From Thelephora terrestris (taxonomy: Eukaryota; Basidiomycota; Agaricomycetes; Thelephorales; Thelephoraceae): a stretch of DNA of 64,000 nt. Below, one piece after another: positions 7,943 through 32,396 of this stretch. The stretch is from the NCBI GenBank assembly GCA_015956445.1, contig WIUZ02000005.1, positions 310,001 through 374,000 on the forward strand, written 5' to 3'. Below the pieces are notes generated by a model. That model was not told the DNA's origin, made no database searches, and worked only from the letters and a program-made list of their open reading frames with translations. The first letter of the stretch is position 1; every line of letters starts with the position of its first letter. The translations under genes were made by a program, and so were the position numbers.

Positions 7943-8967
7943 ATGGCAGGCAAAAAGAAGTCGTCGCTCCAGACGGCCCTGCTCAACCAACAGTCACGTC
8001 TCAAACAAAAGGCTCAGATTGCCCAGGCCGCCAAGACGAACGAAAAGATCAAAGCGGCAAAGAAACAGGCTGGGAGGAAGACCGTGACGATTCCATTTGA
8101 TCCGACGGATAAAATCCTTCTGATCGGGGAGGGAAACTTTTCGTTCGCGCACGCTTTGGCGGTGAATCCTCCCACTCAGCTTCAGCACCTCCCGCCGGAG
8201 AATATCACGGCAACGGCATACGATACCGAGGAAGAGTGTCTGGCAAAGTACGCAGATGCTCAAGAGAAAATCGACGCTCTGAGAGCCAAAGGCGTCGACG
8301 TCATATTCGGGGTGGACGCAACGAGGTTGGACAGGGTTTCCCAACTGAAAGGAAAACGGTGGAACAAAGTCGTTTGGAACTTTCCTCACGCAGGTTAGCG
8401 CGGGCACGGCCACTCTATTCGAGAGCGGATGATTTACTGGCGCATCTCATAGGGAAGGGCATCTCCGATCAGGACAGGAATATCCTCTCAAACCAACTCC
8501 TGATCTTGAATTTCCTTCGGTCCGTCTCTGGGTTCTTGGTCCGGGGACCACCACCGACACTCGGGAGTCGGAAAGGGAAAGGGAAGGCCCGGGATGAAGA
8601 GGAAAACTCGGACATAAACTCGGGCAAAGAGGATGAGTCGAATGGCCCCTCCAGAGGAACGGTTATCATTACCTTGCGCAACGTGGCGCCTTATACAGAA
8701 TGTAAGGGTTTCCTTCCATGTGAGGGGGCATCACTAACACCTCACAACGCAGGGGACATCTGTCGTCTTGCGAAGAAACCACCTCCCCCGACTGCAACGG
8801 GCCTGAAACATCCAAACCCTACCTACACCCTATTACGATCCTTCGTCTTCCACAGATGGGCGTGGAAGGATTACGAACATCGCACGACGAAAGGAGAGAA
8901 GGGCAAGACAGGTGAAGGAGGAGAGGATCGAAGCTGGGAGTTTTATCTAAAAGATAAAGATGGGTAG
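7943..8967 (+). CDS. BMT5: 25S rRNA (uridine-N3)-methyltransferase, BMT5-like
   Basis: The family (DUF2431, FDXACB1-like) methylates a uridine of the large-subunit rRNA in the nucleolus, using S-adenosylmethionine. A basic N-terminus (MAGKKKSSLQTALLNQQSRL) leads into motif I, ILLIGEGNFSFAHAL, the hallmark of the family. Then come the acidic residues of the SAM pocket (TAYDTEEEC, FGVDATRLD) and KVVWNFPHAGKGISDQDRN, which is completed only when the intron 8394-8452 is removed. A second intron (8702-8752) joins YTE to WDICRLAKK. The C-terminus (FVFHRWAWKDY) is conserved. ATG 7943 is preferred over 7817 because MAGKKK is the usual start. The last 60 nt and the 3' flank are duplicated further downstream. 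Confidence 0.9.
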
Positions 8968-9071
8968 CGATTCATAATCTAACCACCAGCCAACATCTAT
9001 CACGGTGCATGCAGAAAAACACGCTTGTGTCTGACATGAATCTGCGAAACTCCACAATCAAACAGTAAATG
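8907..9071 (+). repeat. Copy A of a diverged direct repeat (BMT5 tail and 3' flank)
   Basis: This segment starts with gacaggtgaaggaggag inside the last BMT5 exon and runs through the stop codon into the 3' flank. It aligns collinearly with 10255-10412: shared blocks include gacaggtgaaggaggag, gatgggta and tgcgaaa/gcgaaatt followed by ccaca. By eye about two thirds of positions match, with small gaps. Confidence 0.7.
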
Positions 9072-9297: not shown

Positions 9298-10279
9298 ATG
9301 CCTCCAAAAGAGAAGGACTACTACTGCCATTGCGATAGATGTAACGGCGGGAAGGCTGTCGCAAAATCCACGTTTTATCGCCACGGAGGCCGCCTTAAGA
9401 GGAAGCTCTCACAACGAACTAAGGATAGGATACTCAGCCTACCTGATACCCCTCCCCCAATTCGAAGACGACGAACTCGACGTAGGAACGGAAGAACTTC
9501 CACTGACGCATCCCTTCTATGTAACCGAGCGTCTGGATCAGCCTCGGTACGTATAAGATTAGATAACTCAATATATGCGTCGAATATCAAACAAAACTCA
9601 CCAAATTTACGTCCAGGGCGCTGGTTCCGGTGTAGGAAGTTCTCAAATCGATGGAATGCCCACAGAAATACACCCAAATTCCCTTCCCCAGAGCACTATC
9701 GACCAGGAAGCCGACTTGCGCTTTCCCCCACCTCCTTCCATCGAGGCCAGCGATTTTGACAACCGAGATCCTCATCCACCCAACTTACTCGATGTTGTCG
9801 GGGAAGAGAACCTTTCGCTTGACCAAACCTTCAATAATCTTGACACGGGTAATCGCACCTCTCACAACTCTGAGGATGAAGCACTGCCTGAAAATCTACT
9901 GCCGGTCATCGAGGATCCCATTGTCTTCCAGAAGATTGTCGAGTCGCTCCGGTTCATCGAGATGCCTGAGAACGCGACCCTCAAATCTCAGCTCACTCTT
10001 GAAGATCTTGACACACCCAGGAATCCGGCTCCCCAATCGTCTACTTCTTTGGATGATCCGGATCTCCTTCTGTCTATCTCGTGTTTCATCGACCTCTTGA
10101 GTAGCCCTCAGGACACTTATGAGAATATTCGCAGAAACATTCGGAGACTGTGGCCCTCAGTTGAGATGCTATCTTATCATCAAGTCAAATGCGTGGTTCA
10201 GGACCTCTGGGATCGTCACGCTGAAGGACGGTATGTGACTCAATCGAGTCATGGGACAGGTGAAGGAGGAGGCGATTGA
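9298..10279 (+). CDS. Truncated N-terminal region of a tnp2-like (CACTA/EnSpm) transposase
   Basis: One intron (9547-9616, GTACGT...GTCCAG) joins two frames into about 300 residues. The N-terminus has a small Cys/His cluster, YYCHCDRCNGGKAVAKSTFYRH, of the kind that opens basidiomycete tnp2 (Transposase_21) proteins. The middle is acidic and Pro/Ser rich. The segment near the end (ISCFIDLLSSPQDTYENIRR then LSYHQVKCVVQDLWD) resembles the region just before the catalytic domain in that family. The catalytic domain itself is absent: the frame passes into copy B of the BMT5-tail repeat and stops after TGEGGGD. It is probably an immobile relic, though the frame is intact, so a host use cannot be excluded. 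Identification is from remembered family patterns. Confidence 0.5.
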
Positions 10280-10412
10280 AGCCGGAGGTTCCGTTTAGAA
10301 GATGGGTAACAATTTGTATTCCAACGACCGGCCAATTCGATCACAGCGCGCGCAGTGAGATGTGCATGCGTCTAGCACGAATGCGCGAAATTCCACAAGT
10401 CAATAGTTGATG
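10255..10412 (+). repeat. Copy B of the diverged direct repeat (second BMT5-like tail)
   Basis: This aligns with 8907-9071 over its full length. Its first bases encode TGEGG in the same frame as the BMT5 tail, but the frame then stops early. It lies directly beside the 3' end of the convergent enoyl-CoA hydratase gene. Confidence 0.7.
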
Positions 10413-25288: not shown

Positions 25289-26529
25289 GTCTCGGCTGTG
25301 TTTTGGGATAAGCCCAGATTTGTATTCCAACAAACATGGCACCATGTATCGTACGTTCCGTCGTTGGTGAGTGGTGTTTCTTCGGATCGGGCCTACAGTC
25401 TGATTTTCGCCTTTGTTTGCAGTATTACCTATTTTCTCGTTGCGGTTGGTGGTCGTGAACCACATGTCCTAATGTACTCACAAGGAATAGAAACCCATAT
25501 CTTGAAGTCCCGGGCCACTGGCTATGTCCATCCCCTCCAGCGGTCCGAGCCACCACGGCCTCCCTGTCTGGTTCATTTCTTGGGTGTCGTGAACTTTTGC
25601 CTAGGACAAAGCTCAGATTCCCCATTGGAGCGTACGTAAATTTTACCTGTACTGCGCTGTAAGGTAGGGTGCGCGACCAAGAGTGCAGGGGCACGTTACA
25701 TGAGGGGGTTCATTCTTCCGTTAGTTCATCCTCACTTGCACCCCAGTCCATGAGATGACTACATGTCCAGTGGTAACCCCCTTAGAGAAGGGTCCTCAGG
25801 CGACTAGATATAACAACTCGCTCCCCATACTCCAGAGACAGTCGCAAGGCTCACGAACCTCATCTCGCAAGTCTACGCGTTGCAGGGTAAAGTGCAGAGT
25901 CAGTCAGGGTATTGAATTGAACCTTGTATGACCGCTTCGCGTGCAGGATTGCTTCCTTGCTCCCTCAATGGCCAGCCTGAATAAATTCTGGTCAGGGAAA
26001 TACAAAGCTCGGCCGATAACTTCTACGACGGCCATCGGCAATAAATTGCAACCACCCGAGAGGCATTTATTACACGGTAGTATCAACTTCCTCTTAATCT
26101 ACGTGCTCACAATACAAATGGTAATGGCTGGTGCGATGTCACAGTATAAAGGAGAGAACCTCCGAAAGATGAACCGAGGCGGGGTTTGGCTAGGCAATGC
26201 TTCTAGGGAATCGAGAAAACGAAAGGATAGGAGACGCTGGATGGAGGGGACGAGGGCGCAGGACAAGAGAGATATACATGACATAATGAGATAAATAGAT
26301 GGCGTTGCGATGGTTTTTAGCTCTTCGAAGTGACATACCAGACAAGTCTCGTAGAATAAAATTGAAGCTTATCAGGATGTTGGTTGGCGGGAGGGGGAGA
26401 GTGGATGATATCGGTTTGGGTTGAGGATGGGCGAAGGTCAAATGATGGATTGGAGGAAAGGAAGATGGAAGTGTGCAAAGTATCGAAACCTTACGGAACA
26501 TCCACCTGGGGAAACCCATGACAAGGATT
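25289..26529. other. Intergenic region downstream of STE3
   Basis: A plus-strand frame at 25298-25639 has no recognised motif. The right part (about 26200-26529) is the 3' flank of STE3; blocks such as gagataaat, tttttagc and accagacaa recur in the broken copies at 28.7-28.9 and 29.5-29.7 kb. No pheromone precursor was recognised. Confidence 0.4.
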
Positions 26530-28004
26530 TCACACTTGGTCGTGGGCGTCGTTCAGACAAATAGTCCTAGTAGTGTCCGGCACAGACCCCCTCCTCAACG
26601 GGTGTTCGAGAGCGGGCTCTGGAACTTGTGGAATCACGTCAATCCACAGGTTCGATGAACTGGACGAGGTAGGCCGTTCCATGGAAGGGTGGGGTTGAAA
26701 TCTGGGGTCGCACTCGTTGACAGCGGCCGTGATACAGGGCTTCTCTGGGGACGATTCTGAATTCCTTCTTGACTCGGTTTGTTGAGTAGTAAGCGTACGG
26801 GAAGCGAAATGAATCGGAGGCATAGCGACGTCCGGGGAGCGAGTGGCCGCGCCTCCGGCGAATGCGCTGCATCCAGGAAGTTTGGCCAAAGTCGAGCCCA
26901 TAAGGCGGTAGTTCTTCTGTGCCTCATCGGCGAATCCAAAAAAAGCGAAGAAGACGAGCGCGCAGTAGACGGGGACCCATCTGTTGAGCTCGAGCGAGAG
27001 GACTTGAACCGGGTCCATCAAGACCCTAGGGTACTGGAAGACGCGGGAATACCCCCAATGGGTGTCAGCCCAGGAAACCCATGGGCTGACATGACCCCAC
27101 GAGACGTTTAATGAGATGTTCCAAGCGACGAGAGGGATGGTGATGATGTAATCAGTGGAGGCTAAGGCGATAAGACGCCAGTAGTTGCTGTAAGCGATAT
27201 CGACATTGAGATCCTTGAACTGTTTTCGCCTCCTAAAGAAGGCGCGGATTGTAAGACCTGGGTGTAGGAGTCCTGGATCAGTGCTTGAGGCAAAGGAAAT
27301 CTGATGAAGTCTTACCCCCGTAGCAAGCTGAGACAACTGAGATGATAAGTGGCCACGAGTAAACGAGGACGTAAGCAAGAGGGGTGTTCCAAGTGGCCGT
27401 ACCGCAACCGTAGTCCTCGTAAATGTTGAACCTATGCCCAGCAACGACGTACTCTGGGGCGCGAAGGAAACTCAGTCGGGTTGAATTCGTAGCGGGGTGA
27501 GAACTTACGCAAGACCATCTCCAACACTGGAATTCCTACTGTGATCAACAACTCGATGGTCATCTCACGGCGTATCTGTCGAGGAGTCAAGATTTTTGAT
27601 GAATATTTTGCGAAACACATTGTGATTCAAAGCGCACCCCATGCGGAGTTGTTATCACGGTGATGTTATAGACGCGGCGGATGATACAAAGAGCGCAAGC
27701 AGGCAATGCGACAGCAAATCCGGTTTGGATACGGGTGGCTAGAAAAGGTTTGAGAGGTTTGAGAGTCAAGTGAAGGGATACGCAACGTACCGATATCGCA
27801 CCACACTGGTGCCCAGTTGATTGCATTCCCGTTCCACACAATAGAGTCAATGAAGAACACGAGGCAAGTAAGTGCCGTCCAAATCAAGTACATGCTTGTC
27901 CCAGAGTGCACGTTCCACGACCGAAGATGCCACGATAGTGGAATGACTGAAAGGAAGAAACCGATCCCGGAGAATATTGTGAACGTGGTGTTGGAGGCAG
28001 TCAT
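26530..28004 (-). CDS. STE3-type pheromone receptor (class D GPCR)
   Basis: This is a seven-transmembrane receptor for farnesylated mating pheromones. From ATG 28004 the protein reads MTASNTTFTIFSGIGFFLSV (TM1), SWNVHSGTSMYLIWTALTCL (TM2), WNGNAINWAPVWCDI and QTGFAVALPACALCIIRRVY (TM3). It continues with a conserved RREMTIELLITVGIPVLEMV (TM4), RFNIYEDYGCGTATWNTPLA (extracellular loop), LVYSWPLIISVVSACYGG (TM5), RRRKQFKDLN with the next TM6, and WVPVYCALVFFAFFGFADEA (TM7). The tail is Ser/Pro rich and runs to the stop at 26530. Introns are short. An upstream frame extends to 28070 but adds nothing family-like. It is apparently intact. Broken 3' copies lie just upstream. Confidence 0.9.
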
Positions 28005-28689
28005 CTCGGCGTGCTCAGTTTTCTTCTTGAGAACTTGAGGCTCCGGTGTACGCGTCGAAAGCTCGGTCAATCGATAGACTGGGGGATTCTGAAAAGCCAG
28101 AGAGAATTCAGTTTGATATAAGGGAGGCGTTATCGTGGGCGACCATCCACAGGGCTAGGTTAGACCAGATATATATAGATCCGTGGAAGGAGGGTGCCAC
28201 TAGCCGAGTTCCACAGCGTTTCTGGCCCTACAGAGCGGCCGGGGTCCCTTCGCCTCCTTCTAAGTCCACAATGATTCGTCTGGATTTGAATGTGCACCGT
28301 GTAAACCTTACGGATAGTCGCCCACTTGAACGCCGAGCGGCGTCTCAAATTCTGTGTGGGTCCCTGAGTCTTAGCAGACAAAGTTCTCTTTCCACCCCAC
28401 AAAGGGAACCGAGATCCCGTGGCAATGATCACTATCAGTGGTCAGGGTCTTCTGGACCCATCATCAGACAAAGTCCCCCTGGGACCGGTTTGGGTCAATG
28501 GGGAGGCTACGATGTTGAGGGGAATGATCCCCTGGCAATAACGTCGGTCCTGACGCCTTGCCCTCGCAGGTTGCCTGCCTGGAGTCGTCACCAAGGAAAG
28601 GGTTGTCCGGAGAATGGATCCCGTCGTATGATTCCTGCAAGTAAGCATCAAACAAGGCCCAGAAAATAAACATCAATATTACCGAGAAA
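28005..28689. other. Region upstream of STE3
   Basis: It holds the STE3 promoter, with a TATA-rich run (agatatatatagat near 28168-28180) about 165 bp upstream of the ATG. A 207-codon plus-strand frame (28046-28669) starts with GTG, has arginine/serine-rich content and no motif, and is judged spurious. No CaaX frame was seen on either strand. Confidence 0.4.
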
Positions 28690-29130
28690 TCGCAGATACG
28701 TTTTTGCACAGTGGCTGTGGGGCTAGAGTAGGTGCGATCCTTCCCCCGAGAACGAGAATGGAAGGCAAGAAGGGGATAGAATAGGATGAGATAAATCAAT
28801 GCCAATACGAGGATTTTTAGCCCTGCGAGACGGTGCACCAGACAATATCCGTAAAGATAAGGTTGGGAGTTAGGCCGTTAGGATATTACCCATTGAATAT
28901 TGAGGGACGGAAGAGTGAGCGGCGTCGTCTTAGTTCGAGAGCATGACAGCCGCGCAGCGATTTCACACTTGGTCGAGCCTGGCGTTGTTTCGGTGAATAC
29001 CGTCTCCAGCGACCTCCCTGCCACCAGGGGAACCCTGGAACCTGCGGAGCCATCTCGATACGCGGGCTCAATAAACTGCACAAAGTCGGCCGTTTTATAC
29101 AAGAGTAAGGCTGGGGCTCGAGGTCGAACT
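28690..29130 (-). pseudogene. Broken STE3 copy: C-terminal tail and 3' flank only
   Basis: On the minus strand this matches the C-terminal cytosolic tail and 3' flank of the intact STE3 gene. The exact 17-mer gatttcacacttggtcg is shared between 28959-28975 and 26526-26542. Translated similarity includes SEFDLEPQPY..IKRPT against NECDPRFQPHPSMERPT, and MAPQVPG against VIPQVPE. The 3' flank shares gagataaat, gatttttagc and gcaccagacaa with the intact gene. All seven membrane segments are missing and the frame is disrupted. It has the same orientation as the intact gene. Confidence 0.7.
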
Positions 29131-29224
29131 CGCTGATGGTCTGCAACCGTCGGACTGCCAAGCGTCTCGTTGGGCCGCCGGGTCAGCCCGTGGTGGGATA
29201 CTCCCGCCAGGGTGACCTCGATGC

Positions 29225-29690
29225 TCCCCTTGATAGTATTAGATGGGCCATTGTCGTGTCCGCGTTTTGCTTCTTCGGTTTGTTTGGATTCGCTGACGAG
29301 GCAAAGAAGAACTACCGCCTCCTGGCTTCCACCTTGGCCAAATCTCTTGGATACACCGCGTTCACTGAGCGTGCGGCCACCTCTGGCCCGGGCGTCGATG
29401 TTTCTCTTCATTTTTCACCCCGTACGTTTGTCACCCAGCAAACCGAGTCAAGGGGGGCATCCAGGTTCGTTCTCGGATAAGTCTCGATTTCGGCCGCTAT
29501 AAACGAGTGCGACGTCAAGCGCTGACAGTGCTGATAGCCCAACTCTTGGGTGTATTTTACGAAACTTATCTAGTGTACATGTTTCACCTCGAAGGGCTAA
29601 AAATACTCGCGAAAACATTCCTTTGTCTTGTTCTATTTGATTATTGCCTTCCGTGTATCCTCCAGAGTTCCTCTCCTTTGTAAACCGCGA
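29225..29690 (+). pseudogene. Broken STE3 copy in opposite orientation: TM7 to 3' flank
   Basis: A plus-strand frame carries FGFADEAKKNYRLLASTLAK and TFVTQQTESRGAS, matching FGFADEAQKNYRLMGSTLAK and TLTTQQTESRRNS of the intact receptor. It stops near 29480, and a short further match (AAINECD against AAVNECD) follows out of context. The 3' flank (cctcgaagggctaaaaatac) then aligns with the flanks of both other copies. TM1-TM6 are absent and part of the tail is deleted. It lies head-to-head with the copy at 28690-29130. Confidence 0.75.
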
Positions 29691-30062
29691 ATCATATGCA
29701 CATAGATAAAGAAGAAAGGACATCGGTTCCGCTGTTGATGCCAGCCGTAGACTCGGGAAGTTATACGGTGAACCTTGGTTCTCACTAATCAAAACCAGTT
29801 CTTGCATACGACGCTCAGTTCAATACTCTGACTATCACAACTCCGTACTCCACGCTGCAACGCGCAGGCCTGCGTGATAGGCAGTGCAAGATGTCTCCTC
29901 GAGGTACGAGGAGTGGATTAATATACTAAAGATCTCGTCGATGGGTATGTAACTAAACCGTGCACCGGCTGGCTGCGATTCCAAGATCACGCAGCGGCCC
30001 TTCTAGAACAGGTCTATCTGAGGTCTATCTAGGGTAACATAAGTAGCAGTGTCTTTCAAAGT
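29691..30062. other. Intergenic region between STE3 relics and COQ1
   Basis: AT-rich flanking sequence with no frame of note. A short direct repeat (aggtctatct, twice near 30010-30028) is present. No CaaX frame was seen. Confidence 0.4.
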
Positions 30063-31600
30063 TCACCGAGATCGTTTCACAGCACGATCACAGAGCGCAT
30101 ATAACGCCGTTTTTGCTTCACTGTCTGGCAAGTGCGATAACAGCTCCTTGGATTTGTCAGCATAAGCTTGCGCGAGCTTTCGTGTGCGCTGTACGCCAGA
30201 CGAACGTCGAACGTAATCTCGGGCCTGTGAAAAAAATTCATGGTCAGTTGATGCTACAAGAAGTGGTGAAAATTGGACACTGACAAGTTCCACGTCTCCA
30301 GGTTGCTTGAACTTGCGCTGGATGAGCGGACCGAGTTCTGGATGTTCCTCCCACGCGAACAAAGCTGGGCCCGTCGCGATTCCGAGTTGTAAATCAGCCC
30401 CGCTAGGCTTGCCCATCGTACTTTCAGCGCATTCGTAATCCATAATGTCGTCCGCAAGCTACCAAAAGCATAAGATGTTTTAGACAAAGCCCAAACGGGA
30501 TACTTGTATGGGCTTACCTGGAAGGCAATCCCAAGATTACGACCGTAAGCGTACGCAACCTCCTTCCAAATCTCACCTTCCCTGCAACCTCCCAAAACGA
30601 CGGCGGCCCTAGCACCCTTAGCCATAATACTGGCCGACTTCAAATAAGTCTTCTGCAAATAAACGTTCCAGTTTTCCTTCCCAAGCGCGGGTCGAACCTG
30701 TTCGGATTCGTCCCTCCCATCGACGGCCTTCATTTGCAAAATCTCCCCCTCGACCAAATTCGCGACCACGCTCGAGATGAGCTCGACGACCTCCACAGAA
30801 CCCAGCCTCGACAACGCAGCGCTGGCCCTTCCCAACAGGAAATCTCCGCCCAAGATCGAGTACTTATTTCCGAACGCGGCAGGCGCGGACGGGACGCCCC
30901 TTCGCAGTGACGACTCATCGATGACGTCATCGTGCAGGAGGGACGCGACGTGTATCATCTCCAGTATCTGAGCAAGACGCATCTGCGTGGGCAGAATCGA
31001 AAGCGATGAGGAGACTTGACGGGGTTCGATGGGTAAGTGGAGTTCAGGAGGTGGTGTTTGGGGGGTCGAGGTCGGTAGGGTCGATCGTAAGGTGAAGACG
31101 GAGTCGAACGAGGTGCTATGCTCTGGCATGTTCGGATTCCAGTCGTTCAACACGTCGGGACGCGTCAGAGGACGATCGAGCTCATCCGCTTTACCTGCAA
31201 TCCCCCCATTCTCCGCAGCCCAAGACTTGAGTCTCCAGTCGTGGCCGAGCCCGTTCGTCGCTTGCGACCACAGCAACACGAGCAACGGCCTGAGCTGTTT
31301 TGACGGGTGCAGGAAGTAGTACCTCGCAATCTCAGTTAAACCCGGATGCGATGAACCCAGGAGGTTCAACAGCGACTCTCGCAGTTGCGCAATTTGAGGC
31401 GCGACCAGTTTGAAAGGGTCCACGTGGGATGATGTATTTTGAAGCGGTTGGGAGGTGGAGGGTGGAGGGGGGGAGGGAGTGACCATCTTCACCTGCGAAA
31501 CAGCTGCGGGAGTGTACTGACGCTGGAAAACCTTCCGAGAGGGAGAAAGGAGCGAAGCGGGGGTACGGAACCGCGGTATATGAGCGGGCCAGCGGCGCAT
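30063..31600 (-). CDS. COQ1: Polyprenyl diphosphate synthase COQ1 (ubiquinone side chain)
   Basis: This enzyme extends farnesyl or geranylgeranyl diphosphate with IPP to make the ubiquinone tail, in mitochondria. A presequence (MRRWPAHIPRFRTPASLLSP) precedes the conserved core: RYYFLHPSKQLRPLLVLLWS, the first Asp-rich motif LLHDDVIDESSLRRG (DDVID near residues 224-228), FGNKYSILGGDFLLGRASAA, VEGEILQMK, QKTYLKSASIMAKGAR and the second Asp-rich motif LADDIMDYE. It ends LYALCDRAVKRSR. A Pro/Thr-rich insert of about 70 residues between RPLLVLL and QMRLAQILEM is usual in fungal COQ1. Introns lie after LGIAFQ and after GDVEL. The start at 31600 excludes a Cys-rich upstream extension. It is about 470 residues. 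Confidence 0.9.
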
Positions 31601-31793
31601 TAGAACGGCGGTCAAGCCCCGAACGTCGAGGAGGAGGGGGGTCGAAACCGAAAGGATCGATGTTAACGAGGCGTCTACGAAATTTAGTCGCGTAATCTCC
31701 CGTTGGCCCCACAGCCTGCCGCATCCCCAACAAAAGTTAAGACAGTCATAAATGCATTCAAATAACGTATGATAACAAGATAGGACAAGGGCT

Positions 31794-32396
31794 CTAACGT
31801 GGCTTTGCTGCACGAGTAACCGGTGGTCGTACGTTGGGATTCAGAGGTGGAAGCTGAGCGACTCTCGTTGATAGCCTTCCTCTTAATCGGTTCACCGGCT
31901 TTTCAAGATGATAGACGAGTTCCTTGGCCTGAGTAATAGGGTCAGCGCAAACCGTTTCAGTCACGAGAGAGAGGCAACGCACTGAGATCCTTAACCTATC
32001 CCAGTCAACCGAGTCCTTTGCGTTGAGAGCTACCAACATAACCGGGTCTCCTTCGTCGGACGTTGGCTCCTTGCTCGTACTCCCGTTATCTTTTAGTGGC
32101 AAGACCGGAAGCACTATTATGCGACCAATCTGGGTTGCGGCGGTCAGCTTAAACCCATCAAAGTAGGCTTCGGCCTCACAGACCTCGCTATCGACCATCC
32201 CTATCCCGTGCTGTTTTGTCTCCTGCCACACCTCGCCACTGACCCCTACCAGCACTCGAATCTCATCCTTAGGCTTTGAAGTGTCGGACGCATAAGATAC
32301 CAACTGTCCCTCTGGCGTAAACAACACGGCCGTGTGCAACTCCGGAAGAGACAGCACTTGCTGGAGAAGATTGTGCAACGAAGACAGCAATAACAT
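31794..32396 (-). CDS. Roadblock/LC7 protein, LAMTOR2-like (Ragulator/EGO complex)
   Basis: LAMTOR2-type proteins form part of the vacuole/lysosome scaffold that holds Rag GTPases for TORC1 signalling. The frame begins MLLLSSLHNLLQQVLSLPEL, then TAVLFTPEGQLVSYASD, matching the first helix and strand of LAMTOR2. GVSGEVWQETKQHGIG, GRIIVLPV and LVALNAKDSVDWDRLRIS follow. The final helix is AKELVYHLEKPVNRLRG. A 54-nt segment between DRLRIS and AKELVYHL has good splice signals (GTGCGT...CTCAG) and is probably an intron that happens to stay in frame. A further in-frame segment before GRIIVL may be another insert. The basic C-terminal tail is extra. It lies 193 bp upstream of COQ1 on the same strand. 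Confidence 0.7.
   Translation of the reverse strand: MLLLSSLHNLLQQVLSLPELHTAVLFTPEGQLVSYASDTSKPKDEIRVLVGVSGEVWQETKQHGIGMVDSEVCEAEAYFDGFKLTAATQIGRIIVLPVLPLKDNGSTSKEPTSDEGDPVMLVALNAKDSVDWDRLRISVRCLSLVTETVCADPITQAKELVYHLEKPVNRLRGRLSTRVAQLPPLNPNVRPPVTRAAKPR

Follow-up and report, generated by a model that had tools for sequence, protein, structure and literature searches.

In mushrooms, STE3-like receptors also exist outside mating. In Flammulina velutipes, the non-mating STE3-like pseudogene FvSTE3.s2 is described as lying 6.7 kb from FvSTE3.s1 (PMC3140503). The STE3-family receptors Brl1-Brl4 of Schizophyllum commune are thought not to recognise mates (PMC8161036), and in Trichaptum STE3.1 and STE3.3 are putative non-mating copies beside mating receptors (PMC8970355). 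Non-mating or receptor-like STE3 copies have been described as well in Pycnoporus (PMC4101180) and Pleurotus (PMC13108863).

We analysed a window of 64,000 nucleotides from Thelephora terrestris, bases 310001-374000 of contig C45, in a genome of 40.6 Mb and 60 contigs, whose STE3 genes with their exon pattern and whose pheromone precursors suggest a mushroom-forming basidiomycete. The window holds an intact STE3-family receptor gene, called R2 here, and two receptor relics, F1 and F2, which meet head-to-head upstream of it. As in Flammulina, where the transmembrane part of FvSTE3.s2 is described as damaged, a dead and apparently non-mating STE3-like copy lies near a relative. However, the Flammulina account concerns one pseudogene, judged to be its neighbour's copy, whereas here there are two unlike relics, neither copied from the nearest intact gene. 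Exons of 67 and 138 bp are common to the S. commune receptors (PMC8161036) and to those of C45, but three of the four brl genes are placed at the B locus, while the receptors of C45, closely paralogous among themselves, are located away from the contig that bears the pheromone genes. Relics are not mentioned in the PMC8161036 passages on the brl genes. Trichaptum and C45 both have STE3 copies judged non-mating; in Trichaptum, STE3.1 and STE3.3 are reported inside MATB near pheromone precursor genes, with their status taken from population data, whereas the C45 copies are judged from the sequence of one genome. In the titles, abstracts and passages of the literature consulted, no description of a head-to-head pair of STE3 3' relics was found. 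Dead STE3-like copies are already precedented, and the arrangement here is unusual but explicable.

Features of the locus

The features of the window (window coordinates) are as follows.

25862-26529, minus strand: 3' flank of R2, partly common to F1, F2 and R3 (repeat search, self-BLAST and comparison of the R2 and R3 blocks)
28004-26530, minus strand: R2, intact STE3-family receptor gene with 5 exons, 415 aa and a C-terminal DQV
About 28134-28327, strand unassigned: MITE-like element with imperfect 14-bp terminal inverted repeats (inverted-repeat search)
28388-28604, minus strand: distal upstream region of R2, resembling the region upstream of R3 (C45:396247-396461)
About 29139-28750, minus strand: F1, receptor relic with C-terminal tail, DQV-stop and 3' flank, without a transmembrane region
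29140-29160, no strand: point where F1 and F2 meet head-to-head, with about 21-24 bp that neither profile end covers; approximate, from two nhmmer profiles
About 29161-29937, plus strand: F2 as a whole, TM7 exon and 3' flank with most of the tail deleted
29161-29520, plus strand: F2 coding part, R3-like, with the TM6-TM7 loop carrying small deletions, followed by the TM7 exon and the beginning of the tail
29526-29937, plus strand: F2 3' flank, R3-like
30063-31840, minus strand: polyprenyl synthetase gene, separate from the relics (PF00348 in two ORFs, E 3.8e-40 and 5.6e-7)

The spliced model of R2 has exons at 28004-27791, 27738-27638, 27575-27509, 27453-27316 and 27257-26530 (214, 101, 67, 138 and 728 bp), separated by introns of 52-62 bp that are all GT/AG. 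The spliced protein matches the STE3 profile PF02076 over positions 1-292 of 292 (E 2.5e-88), and this whole-profile match places R2 in the family. The first-pass annotation had already read R2 as an intact receptor on the minus strand, and the splice model and full-length match bear this out. No relative of R2 with a solved structure was found at E up to 1.

The distal upstream region of R2 and its counterpart upstream of R3 gave a local score of 76, against a maximum of 44 in 500 mononucleotide shuffles. Between this region and the gene, about 130 bp from the R2 ATG, sits the MITE-like element, whose ends read GTGGGCGACCATCC and GGATAGTCGCCCAC. It has 22 matches in the genome, itself counted, and is a diverged relative (69-84% over the matched parts) of a family with a related 168-bp form, of which there are 12 young copies, 97.7-99.4% alike and with inverted ends. 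The receptor profiles also matched weakly, by their upstream part, at C45:292.7k and 296.6k (E 0.017-0.055); because C45:292.75-292.81k aligns to the part of the R2 upstream region that holds the element, both matches may be read as copies of it.

F1 was located by a DNA profile of R1, R2 and R3, the three intact receptors of C45, which matched 29136-28750 on the minus strand (nhmmer E 1.4e-36); with a second profile that also included R6, a receptor of contig C1, the match began at 29139. Local alignment scores of F1 were 63 against R1, 41 against R2 and 49 against R3, with maxima of 27, 31 and 29 in 200 mononucleotide shuffles each. The same-orientation, tail-only fragment first placed at 28690-29130 is recovered, and its similarity to the receptors is not confined to the 17-mer noted for it and R2. 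That 17-mer, GATTTCACACTTGGTCG, is indeed present both in R2 (26526-26542) and in F1 (28959-28975). It is complementary to the final codons with the stop (...DQV-stop) and to the 3' bases that follow at once, and so represents the C-terminal end conserved in the receptor family; the R1 and R3 proteins end in DQV too. The tail frame and the DQV codons of F1 are out of frame with each other, a net frameshift judged from the ORF list and the position of the 17-mer. Pfam gave nothing for the F1 ORF at E up to 0.01, and F1 is thus not a complete STE3 (PF02076) member.

The coding part of F2 matched the R1/R2/R3 profile at 29161-29520 (E 2.8e-85) and its 3' flank at 29526-29925 (E 1.8e-22), with similarity to the R3 3' flank reaching 29937. 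Immediately ahead of the flank, F2 lacks tail and 3' sequence that amounts to about 285 bp in R3. The frame of F2 shifts into a stop at 29478-29480, as seen from the ORF end and the alignment with R3, and its ORF matches PF02076 at positions 266-292 only, with 22.4 bits against a cut-off of 29.2, so that F2 is not a complete member either. The type and opposite orientation given for this TM7-to-flank fragment in the first-pass annotation stand, but its limits (29225-29690) have to be widened to about 29161 to 29937. Likewise, the block gctaaaaat proposed for all three 3' flanks is exact in F1 and F2, whereas R2 has gctaaaaac. F1 and F2 are pseudogenes, each combining homology with truncation and frame damage, and both lack TM1-6. 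Both are cut on the 5' side at the junction, with transcription directions pointing away from each other; their edges are approximate, as looser local alignments continue at low identity.

Elsewhere in the window, 8907-9061 and 10255-10403 form a direct repeat (about 155 bp, 70% identity).

The receptor cluster

A genome search with PF02076 gave 29 matches, which were assigned by position to 12 loci, of which C1 and C23 have four each, C45 three and C15 one. The receptors and remnants outside the window that bear on this analysis are listed here.

C45:220k: R1, intact by transferred splice sites, exons of 214, 101, 67, 138 and 710 bp
C45:395k: R3, intact by transferred splice sites, exons of 214, 101, 67, 138 and 728 bp
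C45:219227-219414, R1's strand, upstream of R1: F0, a tail-only STE3 relic (nhmmer E 1.5e-24)
C45:397477-397552, R3's strand, upstream of R3: R1-type 3'-flank piece of 76 bp, 80% identical (BLAST E 5e-14)
C1:431k: R6, in frame to the end of TM7, with a tail beyond the reach of the transferred splice model
C1:446741-447894: R10, a partial STE3 copy and relic that groups with R2's clade

R1, R2 and R3 are 66-68% identical in protein, and the exons of 67 and 138 bp recur in all three and in R6. Their dN/dS is 0.32-0.38 over the whole coding sequence and 0.25-0.31 in the seven-transmembrane part; in the tail it is 0.40-0.86. Each of these intact receptors has a 3' remnant upstream on its own strand, namely F0 beside R1, F1 beside R2 and the R1-type flank piece beside R3. 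F0 is 84% identical to R3 over 55 bp. nhmmer gave weaker values for the R1-type piece, which is flank and not coding (E 0.0038 with one profile and 3.3e-6 with the other). Beside R6 the profile search, run over C1:401-461k, gave no remnant, which leaves the pattern at three of four receptors. F0 and F1 were also considered as one inherited relic, and this was rejected on a mutual score of 24, below the shuffle maximum of 28.

Several other repeats were noted around these genes. The blocks beside R1 (C45:223.4-233.6k) and R3 (397.0-410.7k) have in common a multicopy gene family with units of about 2 kb, in partly inverted order and up to 91% identical; such blocks could mediate an inversion of the intervening 163 kb. 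At E up to 0.01, Pfam gave no match for six ORFs, three of this repeated family and three others upstream of R1. A same-orientation duplication (71-76%) at C45:217150-217889 and 222095-222928 flanks the F0-R1 pair. On C23, a lone STE3 piece at 537179-537586 has 77% protein identity to the receptor at C1:420k.

Origin of the relics

In a genome-wide DNA search with window bases 28680-29690, the coding part of F2 was 88% identical over 281 bp (the TM7 exon) to R3, an intact receptor about 55 kb away (E 4.5e-96). It was 77% identical to R1, 77% to R6 over a shorter stretch and 74% to R2. An alignment of shared tail and 3' flank, in which F0 and F2 overlap in four columns only, gave the same picture for F2, which was 78% identical to R3 and 56-62% identical to R1, R2, R6 and F1. 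F1 in that alignment was 60% identical to R1, 58% to R2, 60% to R3, 51% to F0, 52% to R6 and 62% to F2. The corresponding tree joins F2 to R3 (support 91.4/89). An attempt to place F1 by the same tree was given up, F1 remaining alone among forks of which several are weak; it has no close intact relative. Since F2 groups with R3 while F1 stands apart in both identities and tree, the sequences show that the relics stem from two different receptors and not from one inversion of R2. The earlier proposal of two further receptors rather than a simple inversion is upheld here, F1 being 51-62% identical to every other row.

F2 and R3 have 29 differences at 279 aligned sites, spread 8/4/17 over codon positions 1/2/3, and the intact pair R3-R1 gave 19/16/36 in the same comparison over 279 sites. 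Because the two spreads are alike, the comparison shows that F2 was coding for a good part of its history, and no more than that, R3 itself being constrained. For F1 the differences were 6/14/9 against R1 (100 sites) and 8/14/9 against R3 (98 sites), with no third-position excess, and the intact pair R1-R3 gave 8/6/12 in the tail over 98 sites. F1 may be the older relic, although the weakly constrained tail keeps this from being firm.

Pheromone precursors and the mating locus

The first-pass annotation took the site for gene turnover at a B-type mating locus. This part of its reading is not supported: the 204 kb of C45 that were scanned yielded no pheromone precursor, and three occur on C23.

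C23:1363.7k, 1372.2k and 1494.4k: CaaX pheromone-precursor genes near STE3 receptors (PF08015 and CaaX scan)

The precursor profile PF08015, at E up to 10, has five matches in the genome. C23 has three of them, including the only two that exceed the family cut-off, and C56 and C58 have one apiece; on C45 and C1 there is none. In a relaxed scan, ORFs of 30-110 aa with a C-terminal CaaX were sought; it recovered all three C23 precursors and counted 13 such ORFs over 204 kb of C45, where 10 mononucleotide shuffles gave 6-18. Six of these lie within 12 kb of a C45 receptor; none is precursor-like, and one is an overlapping frame inside R2. A strict CaaX scan gave none on either C45 or C1; five shuffled versions of C45 gave 1-3. 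The 3' flank common to R2, R3 and F2 was considered as the site of a pheromone gene and dismissed, the CaaX scans giving no precursor-like ORF there.

The precursors on C23 lie within about 5 kb of R7, R8 or R9, and this region is likely the true P/R locus. If both contigs belong to one chromosome, the nearest C45 and C23 receptors are at least about 1.45 Mb apart. In the receptor tree, R1, R2, R3, R6 and R10 stand apart from the C23 receptors R7, R8 and R9, so that the C45 receptors do not group with the precursor-flanked ones, although the forks concerned (94/94 and 94/99) are below the programme's mark of 95/80, which one of nine inner branches reaches. No C45 receptor has a detected precursor gene next to it, bearing in mind that such short, variable genes can escape detection. 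R1, R2 and R3 are intact and constrained and no linked pheromone gene was detected, as would be expected of non-mating receptors. The R2 family probably does not decide mating type, the absence of precursors in this single genome being evidence rather than proof.

History of the locus

The history that we favour, and think reasonably probable, is one of birth and death in a non-mating STE3-like cluster, with a divergent pair of receptors losing both 5' halves in one deletion. R2 is an intact, constrained and probably non-mating STE3-like GPCR gene within a small cluster of paralogues that arise and die. Upstream of it there would once have been two divergently transcribed receptors, F1 on R2's strand and F2, of R3 type, on the opposite strand. 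A single deletion, the simplest account, would have removed their 5' halves with the intervening space, fused the two 3' ends head-to-head and stopped short of R2's upstream region; about 145 bp separate the end of the F1 3' flank from the part of that region which R3 has too. F2 has lost most of its tail as well, and both relics have decayed. Selection keeping the R2 promoter would account for the survival of the neighbour's 3' end only. It is the tight F1/F2 junction alone that suggests one deletion; separate truncations, or an inversion whose other breakpoint was lost, would look the same.

An inversion with breakpoints inside two tandem receptors would produce exactly the head-to-head 3' arrangement observed, and inverted paralogous blocks about 163 kb apart do exist in this region of C45. 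Such an event should also have fused the 5' parts tail-to-tail elsewhere, but no fused 5' halves appeared in the genome search with PF02076 or in the nhmmer searches of C45:210-414k and C1:401-461k. All nine PF02076 matches that include the profile start (genome, E up to 0.001) belong to loci that have a 3' part too. No lone receptor 5' half was found by nhmmer across 204 kb of C45 and 60 kb of C1, or in genome DNA searches with R3 and R2, the latter a weak test in which few candidates were scored and the relic R10 was missed. Such a fusion could have been lost, and we regard the inversion as possible but rather unlikely. That the relics are a recent partial inverted duplication of R2 might be suggested by their position beside R2, by the 3' end that they have in common with it and by a 166-nt inverted repeat, 72% identical, connecting F2 and R2. 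Against this, F2 is nearer to R3 (88%) and R1 (77%) than to R2 (74%), and F1 is about equally far from R2 (58%) and from R1 and R3 (60%); an origin of F2 as a copy of R2 is ruled out by its closeness to R3, and the duplication as a whole is scarcely credible.

Turnover of mating-specificity genes at a B-type (P/R) locus would agree with the clustering of STE3 receptors and relics at the site, and STE3-like genes are described immediately outside the matB boundary in Pleurotus ostreatus (PMC13108863). It is made decidedly unlikely by the lack of PF08015 matches on C45 and of precursor-like ORFs near its receptors in either CaaX scan, by the placement of the three precursors on C23, and by the protein identity of R1, R2 and R3 to R7 and R9 (41-46%) and to R8 (27-31%). 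At all three C45 sites a 3' remnant of another type precedes the intact receptor on its strand, and for this reason a receptor-swapping site outside the mating locus was considered, where a newcomer repeatedly lands at the 3' end of a resident that is then deleted to its tail; we hold such stereotyped swapping to be quite improbable. The remnants might instead have been retained for a function, for instance in a truncated receptor product or in a transcript with an antisense or regulatory effect on R2 or R3. The TM7 frame of F2 is partly open and no more than about 150 bp lie between the end of F1 and the conserved region upstream of R2, but with frame damage in both relics, TM1-6 missing and the inverted repeat with R2 only 72-74% identical, retention for function seems very improbable.

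Conclusions

A cluster of STE3 genes should not be called a B locus before pheromone genes have been looked for. At the locus described here, relics beside intact copies suggest that the cluster gains and loses receptors while some stay under selection. Such turnover is as expected of a changing ligand or of a role in self-recognition.
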